A DNA stretch of 64,000 nucleotides from positions 1,631,883 through 1,695,882 of the forward strand of contig NC_020802.1 in the NCBI RefSeq assembly GCF_000153405.2. The letters are read 5' to 3'. This stretch comes from Psychromonas sp. CNPT3 (GTDB lineage Bacteria; Pseudomonadota; Gammaproteobacteria; Enterobacterales; Psychromonadaceae). Positions 13,236 through 20,295 of this stretch are shown here, piece by piece. A program made the translations under genes and the position numbers. The first letter of the stretch is position 1. The number at the start of each line of letters is the position of its first letter. The notes under the pieces were generated by a model that was given only the letters and a program-made list of their open reading frames with translations, did no database searches and had not been told where the DNA came from.

Positions 13236-14099
13236 TTATAATGAAAAGAGGGATAACGCCAAATTTTTAGCTAACATATGCTCTTGCTGTAACGTCTTTT
13301 GCGTACTTTTCATGGCATCATAAGCATTTTGACACGATAAGGGTAAGGACGTTTGTTGATCAAGCCACCTCTTACTCTCCCTTTGCATGATCCATTCTTG
13401 CTCAATACCACGTAACGACGAATTTAAAGCCGTTAAATCCTCAATACCTAACCACTGTGTCGCGCCACTATTTAATGCCATTTGTGATCCTGCTGGATCT
13501 AAATCGCCAAAAAAGATTAAACGATTCGTTTGCTTAAAGCGCCTGAAAAACAGATACGAATAATGGGTGTTATTGCTCGGTTTGATATCACCTCGATATA
13601 AAAACAAGGCGTTCTTTAAACTCTCTGGTAGATTTAATAGCGCCAAGTTACCCATGACTTCTAAGTTTTCAACCATAATAATATGCGAGTGTTGCACCGA
13701 TTTTATGTCCGATGCGCACACGATAATACCTTGTGCATTAATATCGGGAAGCGTGTATGTTTGCTGGTTTAAACATAATAAATTTAAACTGTTGAGCAGT
13801 ATATAATCGTGATTAACAGCTAATGCATTGAATTTTTCATCTTTAAACTCCCCAGCTTGGCTTACTCGTTTGCCTTTTTCAGGGTACTTATCAATAAAAA
13901 AATTTAACTGCTCATCAGCAATGAGTCGCTGTTTTAATTTTTCAATGTCATGCGCATTAAAATAAAAAAATTTGCCTTGTAACTCGCCAAAATAATACTT
14001 ATCAAAAAGCGCTTGAGATAAAGGGCTCTTTTTAATTTTATTTTTAAGGGCCCCCCTAAAATTATTTTGGCAGTATTTATAAAGACTGCGACTTATCAT
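13236..14099 (-). CDS. JetD/MksG-like Toprim nuclease (DUF2220-type) of a condensin-like operon
   Basis: The C-terminal half of this 287-residue protein shows the two Toprim signatures of the JetD/MksG family. These are a VENLE acidic segment (Glu144, Glu147) and FFGDLDPAGSQMAL with Asp199-x-Asp201. In Wadjet systems JetD cuts circular plasmid DNA after loop extrusion by the condensin subunits. The N-terminal ~120 residues probably correspond to the DNA-binding part, but I cannot name a domain there. It is the last of five leftward genes and starts one base after the membrane-protein gene ends. It is shorter than typical JetD (about 350-400 residues), so it may lack part of the N-terminal arm. 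Function is inferred from motifs and context. Confidence 0.75.
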   Translation of the reverse strand: MISRSLYKYCQNNFRGALKNKIKKSPLSQALFDKYYFGELQGKFFYFNAHDIEKLKQRLIADEQLNFFIDKYPEKGKRVSQAGEFKDEKFNALAVNHDYILLNSLNLLCLNQQTYTLPDINAQGIIVCASDIKSVQHSHIIMVENLEVMGNLALLNLPESLKNALFLYRGDIKPSNNTHYSYLFFRRFKQTNRLIFFGDLDPAGSQMALNSGATQWLGIEDLTALNSSLRGIEQEWIMQRESKRWLDQQTSLPLSCQNAYDAMKSTQKTLQQEHMLAKNLALSLFSL

Positions 14100-14100
14100 C

Positions 14101-14568
14101 TTATTTGCTTTGGATATTAATGATCATGCCATCGACGACATAAAGCTGGTAAAAGGTACCTATCTTGTCAAAAAAACCTTCGTTACCCGCACTATAATTA
14201 TAAAGATATGGGTTCAGTACTATTTTATCAATTTTAAGCTCTTTGCCACCGATCTTGATCAGCATGTGCTCTGCGCGTGCTTCAGGGCCTTTAATATATT
14301 CACGAGACATTAACGGGCCACTCACAATTTCACAGTTTTCAGAGGTGCATTGTGCTTGCTGCGCCGTCAATATATTAAAGGTATAGCCGACACTGACCAC
14401 CAATAAATAAGTAAACACAGGGATAAATAAAATTCCGGCTAAATAATCTTTTAATTGCAACATCTTGCGGAGGGTATAAAGCTTTCTTAATAAGCCAATT
14501 AAAAAACCTAATAAGATCAAGTTTAAGATGATCAAGATAGGCGTTGAGGTCGAGTAAAGTAGTTGCAT
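14101..14568 (-). CDS. Small membrane protein inside the condensin-like operon, unknown function
   Basis: The 155-residue protein has two predicted membrane segments (about residues 9-27 and 43-66). A soluble domain of about 85 residues with two cysteines in CTSENC follows, probably on the periplasmic side; it is rich in beta-type sequence. I recognise no family. It begins 13 nt after the MksF/JetA-like gene and ends one base before the Toprim gene, so it is translated with them. A membrane subunit is not part of the Wadjet jetABCD set as I know it. It could be an anchor, a sensor or an unrelated passenger. Confidence 0.7.
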   Translation of the reverse strand: MQLLYSTSTPILIILNLILLGFLIGLLRKLYTLRKMLQLKDYLAGILFIPVFTYLLVVSVGYTFNILTAQQAQCTSENCEIVSGPLMSREYIKGPEARAEHMLIKIGGKELKIDKIVLNPYLYNYSAGNEGFFDKIGTFYQLYVVDGMIINIQSK

Positions 14569-14581
14569 ATTTAATGTTTCT

Positions 14582-15823
14582 CTATTTTAAAACGATAACA
14601 ATATCGCTATAACTATAATTGGCAGTGGTACCAGGTACCACTACACCTTTGGGTTTAATGTCCAATGCATTTTGCTGCTCAAGCGTTAGTTTACAATAAC
14701 AACTAAACACCAGTTCAACCCATTGCGTCGGACAAATTTCTTTGTTTATTTGAGCCCATAACAACAGATTAGTTTTCCAAAAATCCACGGCTGAAACTGC
14801 TTGCGCAGATGTGATAGCCTGCTCAAACAATAATTCGGCTTGATCTTCAAAATAATCATAATGTGACGGTGCGAGTTCAATTGGCGCCATTTCAACGCGA
14901 TTAACCTCGCGTTTTTTTATTTGTGGCGCACTACTTTGTTTACGTAATGACTGCACAATATTAATCAATGCATCTTCTAACGCACTATTTTTGACGTCAA
15001 CGTAGCTTTTAAGTGTTAATCGAGGCGAGAATTTTAAGCGTTTATCTAAATTGCTATCCTCATACAAAGTATCGCTAAGCTCAAATTCTGGATGTTGACG
15101 TAAATAACGCGCCATATTACGCAGTAAGCTGGCTTGTTTTTCATCGTGACGTAAACGAAATAAACTTAAGCGCATATTATCAATAATAAAACGCAAACGT
15201 GGCAAGGTTTGATTAAACCAGTAAATAAATCCACTTATTTTACGTGCAAACTCAGTAGGACACGCCCAATCACTCCATTCATAACAGCTTTCAGGATCTA
15301 TTTGCTGTAACTCGGTGAGTAATTTTTGCGCATAATTTAAAGCTTTTTCATTTTCGCGCACTTTCGCGCTTAATGAACTCACAAACCCAAACTGACTTGA
15401 GATAGCATAATGCATGTTATCCAAGCTCACGTTGAGGTTATCTTTGGCGTCATAAAAGAGATCATCAAGCTGATCCAAATAATACTGAGCATCATCATAA
15501 AGCTTGCTCTGCACAGATAATCGATAATCGTGCACCGTATCATCTAAGACATCGATAACTTTACCCATGTCCGTTAACTGCCGATAACTACTCTGTTTAC
15601 GCATTAAGCGGTTTAACATGCGCTTAAGCTCAGCCGTTAAACGGTACTCACCCGGCTCATCATCCGGGCGTAATAAACCTTTTTTATGCAAGATATTTAT
15701 CTGCCGAATATCTTGCATGTCCATGCTGATAGAGCCATAGACATAAGCCTCAGCAATCATTTTATCATGACAGCCAATATGTCTTAGTAGTTCAGCGACT
15801 TGCCCTGCATCATAACCCGCCAT
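14582..15823 (-). CDS. JetA/MksF-like kleisin subunit (putative)
   Basis: The 413-residue protein is mostly helical, with a winged-helix-like N-terminus (through about residue 70, including NILHKKGLLRPDDEPGEYRLT). A long helical/coiled central part follows and then a C-terminal domain. No single motif is diagnostic. The call rests on its size, its architecture and its position next to a DUF4194-like gene and an SMC-like ATPase gene, as in mksFEB and jetABC. Its start overlaps the preceding stop by one base (TAATG). The role would be to bridge the ATPase heads as a kleisin. It is too diverged for me to assign DUF3375 with certainty. Confidence 0.62.
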   Translation of the reverse strand: MAGYDAGQVAELLRHIGCHDKMIAEAYVYGSISMDMQDIRQINILHKKGLLRPDDEPGEYRLTAELKRMLNRLMRKQSSYRQLTDMGKVIDVLDDTVHDYRLSVQSKLYDDAQYYLDQLDDLFYDAKDNLNVSLDNMHYAISSQFGFVSSLSAKVRENEKALNYAQKLLTELQQIDPESCYEWSDWACPTEFARKISGFIYWFNQTLPRLRFIIDNMRLSLFRLRHDEKQASLLRNMARYLRQHPEFELSDTLYEDSNLDKRLKFSPRLTLKSYVDVKNSALEDALINIVQSLRKQSSAPQIKKREVNRVEMAPIELAPSHYDYFEDQAELLFEQAITSAQAVSAVDFWKTNLLLWAQINKEICPTQWVELVFSCYCKLTLEQQNALDIKPKGVVVPGTTANYSYSDIVIVLK

Positions 15824-16446
15824 TAAAAGAGTAACTCTTCTTGTTGATGGGCATCATTTTCGGGCAGCTCAATACTCTCCGCATCATTTAAAAATTCAAT
15901 TAATAAATAAATAATATCAAAGCGCGCCGTACCATAATAACGACTGCTACCACTATTTTTACGCACTAAATAGCCCATTTCTTCAAGCTTATGAAACACT
16001 AAGCCTAACTGCTCTCTTGACTCTAGCTTATTAGTTTTAAACGGTTTCAATGTCGTTAAGTGGCGAAGTTGTTCGCGCAGTGTCTGGTCATGCTCAAACG
16101 GGTCAAATAATTCATTAATATTGATCACCGATTTTGCGCGCACCGGAAAATCGGTTTGTGTGGCCATTAAAAGTAACTCTAAAAACTCCACGAGCGGACG
16201 AAACACCCCGCGTAATTCACTAAATAAAGCGCTAAGTTCGGCTTTATTAGAGTCATCAACACTTTGAAAGGTACAATAGTAGGCATCTGCACTCTCTAAA
16301 TACGTTAAATCCCGGTCTAAATTAAGCAGAAAATCAGTGACTTTTTCTTTGTTTTCAGAGGATTTTAAATATTCAAATTCATCGCTCATTGCCGTTTCAC
16401 AAATGATAGCGCCACTGAGCAGTTTTTGTACCGTTTGTTTAAACAT
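15823..16446 (-). CDS. JetB/MksE-like accessory subunit (DUF4194-like, putative)
   Basis: The 207-residue protein has the size and layout of JetB/MksE, the KITE-type winged-helix subunit that binds the kleisin. It starts with LLSGAIIC, resembling the LL-x-G-x-I opening of DUF4194. It has a middle LELLLMATQTDF helix and a C-terminal winged helix (LESREQLGLVFHKLEEMGYL, then a wing and SRYYGTARFDI). Its ATG overlaps the end of the ATPase gene by 8 bp, and its stop overlaps the next start, indicating tight coupling. The call is by resemblance and context. Confidence 0.65.
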   Translation of the reverse strand: MFKQTVQKLLSGAIICETAMSDEFEYLKSSENKEKVTDFLLNLDRDLTYLESADAYYCTFQSVDDSNKAELSALFSELRGVFRPLVEFLELLLMATQTDFPVRAKSVININELFDPFEHDQTLREQLRHLTTLKPFKTNKLESREQLGLVFHKLEEMGYLVRKNSGSSRYYGTARFDIIYLLIEFLNDAESIELPENDAHQQEELLF

Positions 16447-19400
16447 TATCTAACTCCTCTACCACGACCTTATTTTTACGCAACGCCAGCAATTCATCTA
16501 AGCGCGATGTTGGGATCTCGGCATGATAAATTTTATTATCTTTTAATTTATAATGACGATGATATAACGACAATATATGCCTGTCTGTTGACGGTGAAGC
16601 CGATAATATTGAGATGTGATTCGCATTAAACATTTTAAGTAATAAATCGATGTTTTCCGCGGCCAATTCACCGAGCTCATCCACCGGTAATATGATCTGT
16701 GACGCATGCTCATCATTGCCTCTGAGCATGCCTAATATCCCGGCAAAAAGTGATAGCATGGCTAAATAAGACAGCCCTGTAGAGCTGATTTTTTTAAGTT
16801 GTCTTGCATTGCGAGCATGTTTCAACTGCCCTTTTTCTAAAATGCTAAATTCAATATCAAATAACTGCTCAAGCTCTAAAACAAAGCCCTCACTGGGTAA
16901 ATAAGAAGCTAATTTTTGCATGGCGTACACTAAATCATCAGGGATCTCGCCACTGCCTTCGCGGAGCTCATCTCTATATTTTTCAAACAAGGTCGAAAAC
17001 TGCTGTAAAGGGCCCCAATATTCAAGCTCTTCTTGTTTCATTACCGTATAGACATTGATATCGGCTAACGCTTCAAAACTGGCTAATGCCGTCACATTTT
17101 TAGACAATAATTTACCAATACTTTTTATGCGTTGACCAAAATTCTTAATATGCTGATAAAATTCATTGATCATATTGGCATTAATGGTCACCAACTGGTA
17201 AGTGTTTTTTTGCTTTTGCGCTGCACTACTCAACAGATCTGCAATGGCACTTCGGTACTTAAATAAGGTGCGAGCACCTTGGAATTGGTCATTATCACTC
17301 AGTAATGCCTGCCAATTTTCATATAACTCACTGCTTGAATGATCTTTTCTAAACTTTTCAGTAAAGCCTTTTAGCTCGCCTGCAAGGCGTTTTTCAACCC
17401 CTTTAAACTGCTCCAGCCAATCAAAACAAAAGCTGACACTTAAATCTGCTTCATTATTTGGCTCCAGCTCATTGCTTTGTAAGGCAATGCCGTGTTTTTC
17501 ACAATTCTCTTGGCTTTCTCTCAGCTGATACAACAGATCCTCTGTGGTGCGCAATTGCGTAATATATTTTTTAAGTCGCTGATGCAGCGTTTTAATTTGT
17601 GTGTTTTTTTCAATCAAAAGCTCTTCTAAGCTATTTTGAAAACCGCGTAACTCGATATTACGATTTTGATTTACTTCGAGCAATTGAGGCAGATGCACAT
17701 AGCGTTGACTCATAAATTGTTCATATTCACGCGCTTTACGTGCCCATACCGCGCATTTTTCAAGCTCTGTTTCTAATTTTGTGCGTTGTACATTACATTT
17801 ATCGACTTCACCATCGGGATCTATCTCTTGTAACGCAGTATTTTTTTGCTTTTTATGTTCGCTAAGGCGCGCCTTAACATTGCTTTCTATTTCTTGGTGT
17901 TGCGCGCTTAATTGGCTTAGTTGGCTATCTCTATCAGACTCCACCACCATGCGTTGCTCTAACATTAGATTTTGTAGATCATGACGTTCATCTTGCTCAG
18001 TTTCTGCAAAGCTTTGCATTTTCTGTTGATGCGCTTTTATCTCACTTTTTAGTGAGGTCACTGACACGTCTAATGCCTTTGCACTCTCTTTTTGCATGCG
18101 TATTTTTTTGGCTTGAATATTTTGCTGTTGTACTTTTAACTGCTGTAATTTCAGCTGATTTTGTTGCTCTTTTTGTGACGCTTCAAAAATGTTAATTTTT
18201 TGCGCATCTATCTGCTTATTTATCTGCGTAAGCTGCTCTTCAAGATTACTAAGCATCGCAACATGCGAGATTATTTTAGCCTCTAACGTATTTAATTTTT
18301 CACGAAGCTCAGTTTCATTTAGCTGTAGGTCATTTTCCTGCAACACTTGCAGGTCCAGTTGCAAACCATATAATGTATCGCTTTGTTGTTTCCATTGAGG
18401 CGCTAAATCAGTGCGTCTTAATTGCTCTGTTGATAGTACTCGGCCAATGTTATCCTTCCATTGACTCGCAAGTGGCTCATTGCTTAAAAAATATTGTAAC
18501 GAGCCTGCTTGTGGGAGTAATTGCATCTCTACTTCAAAACATTGCTCACGCAACTTAAGCAGTTCACGATTTTCTTTTTTATGCTTATCGAGTAACGTTT
18601 CACGTTGCTTTTCAAGGGTAGTTAAATGACTTTGTAACGAGACATTATTTTGTAAATGTACATTTTGATTTTCATGACAAAGATTTAAGTCATTCTGATT
18701 TGTTTCTAATACAGCCAACAGCTGCGCATCTAGTTGCGGATTTTGTTGCGCGCTCAATATTTTTTCAAGCTTAAGTTCAAGCGCTTGCGCATGCAGATTT
18801 AACTTTAAATGCGTTTCATGTAATTGCTGATTTAACGTTAATAATTGCGTTTGGTAAGTATCATTTATTTTTAAAAGTTGCTTATTTACCTGCTCTTTGA
18901 TATTTGCAGTTTGCGCTTGATTAGCACTGATATCTTGTAAATGTTGCAGTTTAAGTACTTGCGTCAGTTTTTCAAATTTGCCTTGTATTTTACTGACATT
19001 ACCTTCAAAGGCATCAATAATGGCATTCACTTCTTGTAACTGTTGCTCTATGTTACCGACTTGATCTGCGCGTACTTGAAAACTGGCAGCATCCTTTTCA
19101 TCAAACGTCCATTTGTCACTTTCTAACAAATCGATACGGCTTTGATCCGCTTCAATTAACGCGTTAAGTTGTGCTATCTCTTGGCGAAATTGTTTTGAAC
19201 TTTCCTCTAATTGTATTTCTAAGCGATCTAGACTCTCTCTCGCTTGTTGTTTTTCTGTTTTACGCTCGGCTTGCACTTCTTCTAAATTTTTCTGGTGCGC
19301 CACAATTTCAACATGTAGATGCTGTAATTTAACCAATAAACTATCTAATTGCGTAAAATCGGTTTGCCAAACTTTAATCTTTTCCGCTACTTTTTGAATA

Positions 19401-20128
19401 GCACGACTCGCTTGAATATCGGCAAGCCAATGTTGGATATCTTCTTTATTAAGGCTTATTTGCTCTTTGTTATCTAACGTGTCACGTGCTAAATGGTCAC
19501 TTGCTATCGCAACTAACATACGTTTTACCGCATCAAAATCGAGATTTTTCTCAATCGTACCATTGATCACTTTATCGATATGGGGCATTGGCTGCTCACT
19601 AAATGAGAAGCGTTTTTGTAGATTGCGGATCTCTTTTAATTTACGGCCACTGCGCAAGTTTTGGATCACTTGACGATATTTATCAATGCCTAAAAAATTA
19701 GACGTCTCAGCCCCTGCATGACGATAAATACGCTCGACTTCATTCACACTTAAAGGTTGCTGATTTTTATCTATAAATAAAGCGCTATCATAAGCACTAT
19801 CAATAAATTTAAAATGTACCCCTCTGCCATCACTGCTGGCGAGTACCATACACGTTTGCCCATAAGGTCTCTTATATTCATAGATCAGCATACTTGAATC
19901 ATTGGGGAGGTAATAATCAGCAAAATTTCGCGCTTGATCGACTTTACTTACGATATCACTTGGACGCATGCCATAAAATAAAGGTAATAAACGCATTAAA
20001 GAGGTTTTACCCGCGCCATTTGTCCCTTCAAGTTGAGTATGCCCAGTCAGACAAAGTTCATTTACTTGTCCTTTCCAAAAACTATCGATAATAATAATAC
20101 GCAATAATTGATAGGCTGATTGAGCCAT
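16439..20128 (-). CDS. SMC/MukB-like ATPase of a Wadjet/Mks-type condensin (JetC/MksB-like)
   Basis: The 1229-residue protein has the architecture of an SMC-type condensin motor. Walker A (GTNGAGKT) is at residues 35-42. A very long coiled coil rich in Gln/Glu/Lys is interrupted near residues 535-590 by a small hinge-like globular segment (LASQWKDNIGRVLSTEQL, then LYGLQLDL). The C-terminal head has a signature-like STGLSYLAML and a Walker B IILPVDELGE. The TGLS signature resembles MukB more than the LSGG of classical SMCs. The hinge segment resembles MksB/JetC. It is the first gene of a five-gene operon with AAAGGA before its ATG. A role in loop extrusion for plasmid restriction or chromosome organisation is inferred. 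Confidence 0.82.
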   Translation of the reverse strand: MAQSAYQLLRIIIIDSFWKGQVNELCLTGHTQLEGTNGAGKTSLMRLLPLFYGMRPSDIVSKVDQARNFADYYLPNDSSMLIYEYKRPYGQTCMVLASSDGRGVHFKFIDSAYDSALFIDKNQQPLSVNEVERIYRHAGAETSNFLGIDKYRQVIQNLRSGRKLKEIRNLQKRFSFSEQPMPHIDKVINGTIEKNLDFDAVKRMLVAIASDHLARDTLDNKEQISLNKEDIQHWLADIQASRAIQKVAEKIKVWQTDFTQLDSLLVKLQHLHVEIVAHQKNLEEVQAERKTEKQQARESLDRLEIQLEESSKQFRQEIAQLNALIEADQSRIDLLESDKWTFDEKDAASFQVRADQVGNIEQQLQEVNAIIDAFEGNVSKIQGKFEKLTQVLKLQHLQDISANQAQTANIKEQVNKQLLKINDTYQTQLLTLNQQLHETHLKLNLHAQALELKLEKILSAQQNPQLDAQLLAVLETNQNDLNLCHENQNVHLQNNVSLQSHLTTLEKQRETLLDKHKKENRELLKLREQCFEVEMQLLPQAGSLQYFLSNEPLASQWKDNIGRVLSTEQLRRTDLAPQWKQQSDTLYGLQLDLQVLQENDLQLNETELREKLNTLEAKIISHVAMLSNLEEQLTQINKQIDAQKINIFEASQKEQQNQLKLQQLKVQQQNIQAKKIRMQKESAKALDVSVTSLKSEIKAHQQKMQSFAETEQDERHDLQNLMLEQRMVVESDRDSQLSQLSAQHQEIESNVKARLSEHKKQKNTALQEIDPDGEVDKCNVQRTKLETELEKCAVWARKAREYEQFMSQRYVHLPQLLEVNQNRNIELRGFQNSLEELLIEKNTQIKTLHQRLKKYITQLRTTEDLLYQLRESQENCEKHGIALQSNELEPNNEADLSVSFCFDWLEQFKGVEKRLAGELKGFTEKFRKDHSSSELYENWQALLSDNDQFQGARTLFKYRSAIADLLSSAAQKQKNTYQLVTINANMINEFYQHIKNFGQRIKSIGKLLSKNVTALASFEALADINVYTVMKQEELEYWGPLQQFSTLFEKYRDELREGSGEIPDDLVYAMQKLASYLPSEGFVLELEQLFDIEFSILEKGQLKHARNARQLKKISSTGLSYLAMLSLFAGILGMLRGNDEHASQIILPVDELGELAAENIDLLLKMFNANHISILSASPSTDRHILSLYHRHYKLKDNKIYHAEIPTSRLDELLALRKNKVVVEELDNV

Positions 20129-20220
20129 ATAAGATCCTTTACATGCATTTTGCTAAATAAGAATAAGAACGGGCTAATTTATAAGGATCTCAACGCTTTG
20201 TCGATGCTTTTAGATAAACA

Positions 20221-20258
20221 ATGTACGAAAATTAACATATTGCTAAAATATCGTACAT
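20221..20258. promoter_or_regulatory. Inverted repeat upstream of the condensin-like operon
   Basis: ATGTACGA (20221-20228) and TCGTACAT (20251-20258) are perfect 8-bp inverted repeats, 22 bp apart. They lie in the 167-bp gap upstream of the ATPase gene. The spacing suits a two-site operator over the promoter. The binding protein is unknown. Confidence 0.45.
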
Positions 20259-20295
20259 ATTATGCAGATCCTTTGATATTAAAACCTATTTTGGC

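Follow-up and report, generated by a model that had tools for sequence, protein, structure and literature searches.

MukBEF of E. coli is usually the sole condensin of its hosts, has no nuclease and is encoded in the order mukFEB; its taking over of chromosome organization was reportedly treated by Gruber in 2011. In Wadjet type I systems the kleisin gene comes first (jetA-B-C-D), and in Corynebacterium and Pseudomonas the order of the mks operon is given as mksFEBG, MksG being called a homologue of topoisomerase VI A (PMC10123090). In P. aeruginosa, MksBEF is described as acting on the chromosome beside Smc (PMC7485682). Some members of the Wadjet group are said to lack MksG, which is an optional component in an existing large phylogeny (PMC7617805); according to a review, no JetABCD system has a documented chromosomal activity (PMC10586767). 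Here we describe a locus of this group in Psychromonas sp. CNPT3, within a stretch of 64,000 nt (NC_020802.1:1,631,883-1,695,882) called the window; in our labels G stands for genome (G000 is that of the window), L for locus and f for family (f6 is Shewanellaceae). Four of its genes are a MukBEF-like SMC module of the Mks/Wadjet group, with an SMC ATPase of the Pfam family DUF3584, a lineage that may be listed in the data of the phylogeny just cited (PMC7617805). The explanation we favor, with somewhat more confidence than doubt, is that this module would serve Psychromonas as its chromosomal condensin instead of Smc-ScpAB and MukBEF, and that its plasmid-cutting subunit would be facultative. 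Such a state would be intermediate between Wadjet and MukBEF.

The genes of the module are the following:

16439-20128, minus strand: SMC ATPase, MksB/JetC-like, Pfam DUF3584, 1229 amino acids (Pfam and JetC profile matches)
15823-16446, minus strand: KITE subunit, MksE/JetB-like, 207 amino acids (JetB profile match; Pfam MksE and DUF4194 matches in the family)
14582-15823, minus strand: probable kleisin, at the MksF/JetA position, 413 amino acids (position, length and operon conservation)
13236-14099, minus strand: Toprim nuclease, MksG/JetD-like, Pfam DUF7281, with E144, D199 and D201, 287 amino acids

Family profiles (43 SMC, 47 KITE, 44 kleisin-position and 36 nuclease sequences) were compared with reference profiles of 10 to 16 sequences per JetA-D subunit and 15 per Muk subunit; among the Jet references, all four subunits of L194 and JetA and JetC of L200 are typed as Wadjet type I by PADLOC. 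The window SMC is a full-length DUF3584 protein (Pfam E 0, 1069 bits) with intact Walker A (EGTNGAGKTS), signature (ISSTGLSYL) and Walker B (IILPVDELGE) motifs, and in profile–profile comparison the SMC head matches both JetC (97.4% probability, E 1e-11) and MukB (96.9%, E 2e-10), as a preliminary description of this DNA had proposed. The MukB N-terminal domain PF04310 was not found in it with Pfam. With Smc-ScpAB the module would share the SMC-kleisin-KITE plan, but the window SMC reaches just E 0.61 against the canonical Smc model TIGR02168. That the protein is a Rad50/SbcC/RecN- or Lamassu-like repair or defense ATPase, and not an SMC with kleisin and KITE, is very improbable: a weak PADLOC match to LmuB (E 0.011) points that way, against the full-length DUF3584 match, the JetC and MukB head matches and the MksE/JetB-like neighbor (RecN and SbcC profiles were not compared directly). 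A Lamassu-like identity, of which the LmuB match is the sole sign, was rejected.

The 207-residue protein is nearer to JetB (87.9% probability, E 3e-6) than to MukE (2.7%); Pfam MksE matches 11/21 KITEs of the family and DUF4194 matches 7/21, while the window copy by itself has no Pfam match. The last gene belongs to DUF7281 (Pfam, 122 bits) and matches JetD with 94.9% probability (E 5e-8) over 133 columns, in the Toprim half only, with E144, D199 and D201 invariant in 36/36 copies. The MksE/JetB-like and JetD/MksG-like characters first ascribed to these two proteins are thus borne out. In a shuffle control of seven profile pairs with 24 block-shuffled nulls each (the SMC pairs not among them), all seven pairs score above all 24 nulls; the KITE and nuclease scores far exceed them (24/24) and the kleisin margin is small. 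Three of the four subunits are thus assigned by sequence, whereas the kleisin assignment comes from its position and length, the support from sequence being weak.

Run on the five proteins of the window operon, PADLOC finds, besides LmuB, a weak JetD3 match of the last gene (E 0.0035) and no JetA, JetB or JetC match, with nothing for the three middle genes. The curated models of Wadjet types I, II and III do not recognize the window proteins in this respect, and the proposal of a distinct lineage holds. PADLOC describes its own JetC1 models as "DUF3584 domain; MukB-like", and the nuclease family matches its JetD1, JetD2 and JetD3 models weakly. A PADLOC JetD3 search of 229 genomes of the class gave no match and was silent in the controls too, so that it is uninformative; when solved structures were searched with the profiles of the four subunits, no SMC complex came up.

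The module has in common with Wadjet type I the JetC-like SMC head, the JetB-like KITE and the JetD-like Toprim domain. It differs in its nuclease, which is shorter and facultative with JetD likeness confined to one half, and in that several families carry it in all genomes sampled. Like MksBEF of P. aeruginosa it is a MukBEF-like complex with Pfam MksE matches among its KITEs (MksB itself was not compared), but P. aeruginosa also has Smc-ScpAB, whereas none is detected in Psychromonas, where the nuclease is mostly kept. It resembles MukBEF in the SMC head, whereas its KITE lies on the JetB side.

Searches of the relatives covered 60 genomes each, 24 of them Psychromonas including the window genome; 21 of these 24 are at least 93% complete and the other three 85, 79 and 51%. 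The DUF3584 SMC is present in 24/24 Psychromonas, one copy each (36/60 genomes overall). Canonical Smc above the curated cut-off is found in 0/24 (18/60 overall) and ScpB in 0/24 (18/60 overall). By these searches the 36 genomes outside Psychromonas include 18 with SMC, 18 with ScpB and 12 with MukB. MukB is matched in 13/60 genomes, and the sole Psychromonas match, in G003, spans 55 residues and scores 23.8 bits where the cut-off is 23; it sits in a 541-amino-acid ATPase of AAA_15/AAA_21 type with an SMC_N-like P-loop region. G003 was rejected as a MukB carrier, the match being a spurious fragment and its host protein too short for an SMC. Because retention is universal and both Smc-ScpAB and MukBEF are absent, a chromosomal role is proposed for the DUF3584 complex. 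And since every genome of the genus carries it with no detectable Smc-ScpAB or MukBEF, the term "plasmid-restricting condensin" used at first probably covers half of the job. The Psychromonas G019 has about 4.3 Mb in two contigs (C1 2493579 bases) and may possess a large second replicon beside the nuclease-bearing complex.

The module is mostly at a shared chromosomal address across Psychromonas. Of seven flanking queries (DUF1415, patatin, FKBP, ROK, PHP, UxuA and a 191-amino-acid gene), at least one is shared by 21/22 other Psychromonas loci, with L126 counting trivially as the source of three queries, L142 sharing none and G001 left out; the figure for loci of other families is 0/11. The inventory could also be understood if the module were a pure anti-plasmid, Wadjet-like defense fixed in Psychromonas, the genus having no chromosomal condensin or another one. 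A four-gene module with a catalytic nuclease is what such a defense would look like, but the retention in all 24 genomes, mostly at one address, and the lack of Smc, ScpB and MukB argue against it, and we consider it unlikely, though far from negligible.

The nuclease is present in 22/24 Psychromonas and in 28/60 genomes overall. G004 and G007 are without it; their cores are intact, and a rescan at E up to 1 detects no trace of the gene in either locus. In G004 (79% complete), the membrane gene described below lies 118 bp from uxuA. Mean identity within the genus is 67.9% for the SMC, 78.9% for the KITE and 71.5% for the kleisin (23 sequences each), against 45.3% for the nuclease (21 sequences). 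With retention and low divergence on one side and loss and fast evolution on the other, the core is the conserved part and the nuclease is facultative, a pattern that a pure defense would not lead one to expect. In both the SMC and the nuclease trees Psychromonas forms one clade with f2 adjoining (support 99 and 93); the trees are quick and midpoint-rooted, with long branches outside the genus, and their agreement within the genus is broad, compared by eye. This co-inheritance of nuclease and SMC and the retention of the nuclease in 22/24 genomes, like the description of MksG as a topoisomerase VI A homologue, would suit a chromosomal condensin whose Toprim protein works on the chromosome, in unlinking or in a topoisomerase-like way or in DNA repair, and not as a plasmid cutter. 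We find this improbable, as two Psychromonas lack the nuclease, many relatives have the core without it beside them, and its evolution is fast, all of which fits an accessory role in conflict.

A rescan of 31 loci gave no nuclease match up to E 1; one of these loci, L131, breaks off at the kleisin and is uninformative. In a scan with the nuclease profile, the 24 loci found are 14 of Psychromonas, 8 of Shewanella, 1 of Colwellia ponticola and 1 of Thalassotalea. The C. ponticola locus (L092) has the complete module, SMC-KITE-kleisin-nuclease, and its nuclease shares 36% identity with that of the window, versus 22-26% for the Shewanella copies; from these identities, a transfer between Psychromonas and Colwellia is possible.

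Across 197 evenly sampled genomes of the order (thresholds DUF3584 E up to 1e-20, Smc 1e-100, MukB 1e-30), DUF3584 occurs in 75, Smc in 99 and MukB in 69. DUF3584 and Smc occur together in 57 genomes, DUF3584 and MukB in 1, Smc and MukB in 8; 60/69 MukB genomes have neither Smc nor DUF3584. DUF3584 is alone in 17 genomes, 13 of them Psychromonas. It follows from these counts that DUF3584 elsewhere stands mostly beside Smc-ScpAB and that Psychromonas is the clear stand-alone case. By a manual count, every sampled Smc-positive genome of f2 (11), Shewanellaceae (13), f10 (12) and f16 (9) carries the core, often without the nuclease, which again speaks against a pure defense, whereas the core is patchy among those of f7 (6/12), f15 (2/5) and f20 (3/7), as a defense system might be. 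Three f3 genomes (G090, G107 and G122, with loci L129, L130 and L131) have DUF3584 and neither Smc nor MukB (ScpB was not sought), and f3 may be a second family where DUF3584 stands alone. Beside their SMC there is no nuclease in G090 and a weak nuclease-like neighbor in G107 (E 2.5e-4), and in G122 the contig ends. Two relatives, G025 and G050, have none of the three complexes. G039 has DUF3584 without Smc or MukB over the threshold, but its genome is fragmented, with an Smc fragment and ScpB present.

Against 72,556 plasmid records, tblastn with the SMC matched 43, 7 of them over at least 80% of the query, and the nuclease matched 3. In L119 (NZ_OR497351.1), a conjugative IncC plasmid of Enterobacter hormaechei, the SMC of the module is split by an IS256-type element, and the module lies near a TnsD-like gene and CBASS-type genes (ThiF, SAVED and a nucleotidyltransferase); it looks like Tn7-like defense cargo. 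Such plasmid members of the family are in favor of the pure-defense explanation. Taken with the chromosomal copies, they make the DUF3584 family both a mobile cargo and a chromosomal gene kept by whole genera.

The ATPase-first order, which had been taken for a reversed one, is real here and not unusual. The order SMC-KITE-kleisin, then nuclease if present, is found in the first 20 regions, in further chromosomal and plasmid regions wherever mappable, and in 68 more loci, some of them cut by contig or stretch ends; the contrast with the kleisin-first Wadjet type I is thus one of C-B-A-(D) against A-B-C-D. A local rearrangement of gene order was rejected, the order being family-wide. Among the plasmid loci, L118 and L119 have a broken-up SMC (and L118 a broken-up kleisin as well), L120 is an SMC fragment only, and in L124 the kleisin position holds a protein that the first kleisin profile does not score. 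In G006 and G021 (L127:2911-7767 and L128:6721-12125) the nuclease is kept, with about 5 kb of other genes between kleisin and nuclease; two of these genes are presumably kbl and tdh (names given by eye).

Several results weigh against a chromosomal condensin of this kind in Psychromonas. The kleisin-position profile has no significant match to JetA (1.5%) or MukF (1.7%) in profile–profile comparison, although on the same probability scale accepted homologues give 6.4% (MukF-JetA) and 10.1% (MukE-JetB); its scores of 24.9 and 25.1 stand against shuffled maxima of 24.6 and 21.8 and against 31.2 for the accepted MukF-JetA pair. With Pfam, 21 kleisin-position proteins gave no kleisin match and scattered weak matches to unrelated families. 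The part of the kleisin proposal that stands is the fit in position, length and co-conservation in the SMC-KITE-X-(nuclease) operon, from which the 413-residue protein is a probable kleisin. The distribution of the nuclease is uneven: it is beside the core in 5/11 loci of f2, 8/13 of Shewanellaceae, 4/12 of f10, 7/8 of f16 (8 loci inspected of nine), 2/2 of f15 and 2/3 of f20, and in 0/6 of f7. In the order sample, 20/197 genomes, at least one of them reduced (G046, 0.3 Mb), have none of the three condensins at the thresholds used, so that the absence of both classic complexes is no proof of replacement. Each Psychromonas genome yields sub-threshold Smc matches, 2 to 9 in number, the best at E 1.5e-11. 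Five places were inspected with Pfam (one of two listed in G022, three of seven in G000, and the MukB fragment of G003), and they are a tape measure protein, two chemotaxis receptors, an ABC transporter and the AAA_15/AAA_21-type ATPase, none of them an SMC. The DUF3584 model stays below the cut-off in the control C. glutamicum, which is described as having MksBEFG, a Wadjet type I (PMC10123090), so that an MksBEFG-type complex in Psychromonas would escape a DUF3584 search; JetD_C, sought in G000 and G002 only, was not found there, and no genome-wide search for MksE, JetB or JetC was made.

Two features of the operon lie outside the module:

14101-14568, minus strand: small two-helix membrane protein, lineage-specific add-on, 155 amino acids (helices read by eye)
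20129-20295, minus strand: gap of 167 bp 5′ of the SMC gene, presumed operon promoter region (from its position)

The membrane gene is the "added gene" of the preliminary description. It is present, but as an add-on of 2/41 genomes: G000 and the sister genome G004 carry it in the same position, and it was rejected as a regular subunit. The protein has a C-terminal soluble part with a cysteine pair, and the copies of G000 and G004 are 72% identical; G004 keeps the gene although its nuclease is gone.

The layout of the five leftward genes agrees with what had been read from the sequence, all being on the minus strand with overlaps of 8 bp and 1 bp and gaps of 13 nt and 1 nt, a spacing that matches the single operon proposed. 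The best promoter candidate in 20129-20295 is a 9/12 sigma-70-like match (20204-20176), of a frequency not above chance. The operon adjoins catabolic and regulatory genes (UxuA, a GntR/FCD regulator, ROK and PHP), the setting already noted. Its GC content is 37.9% versus 38.5% in the window, and this near-equality, with flanks common to the genus, led us to reject a recent foreign island.

We found no literature joining Psychromonas with MukB, in a search outside of which most subscription papers lie. For Psychromonas and condensin, the titles found deal only with sea-urchin microbiota, lipids, a shikimate enzyme and gas vesicles. In the literature searched there is no mention of DUF7281, and there are single mentions only of DUF3584; both are of "unknown function" in Pfam and likely gain a role here.

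By homology, SMC, KITE and kleisin would load on DNA and extrude loops. On the chromosome, such extrusion would compact the DNA and help to segregate sister DNA. On a small circle, extrusion would run to completion and activate the JetD-like Toprim dimer, which would then cut the DNA, as Wadjet and the conserved catalytic residues suggest. From the pattern of loss and divergence, the nuclease would be a dispensable, fast-evolving defense subunit and the core a constrained housekeeping part; the membrane protein may be a recent accessory, perhaps a membrane tether. That a nuclease-armed complex of Wadjet type alone folds and segregates the chromosome throughout the genus, the same machine serving in plasmid restriction, is a proposition for which we see the chances as evenly balanced.

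If true, Psychromonas would present a living intermediate between the defense system Wadjet and the chromosomal MukBEF/MksBEF, before or during the loss of the nuclease. The genus has natural strains whose apparently sole condensin carries a nuclease, together with two nuclease-less relatives. Whether one machine can serve the chromosome while bearing a nuclease that cuts plasmids, and by what means it spares the chromosome, would become directly testable, and the route from an immune system to a housekeeping condensin would be testable in Psychromonas.

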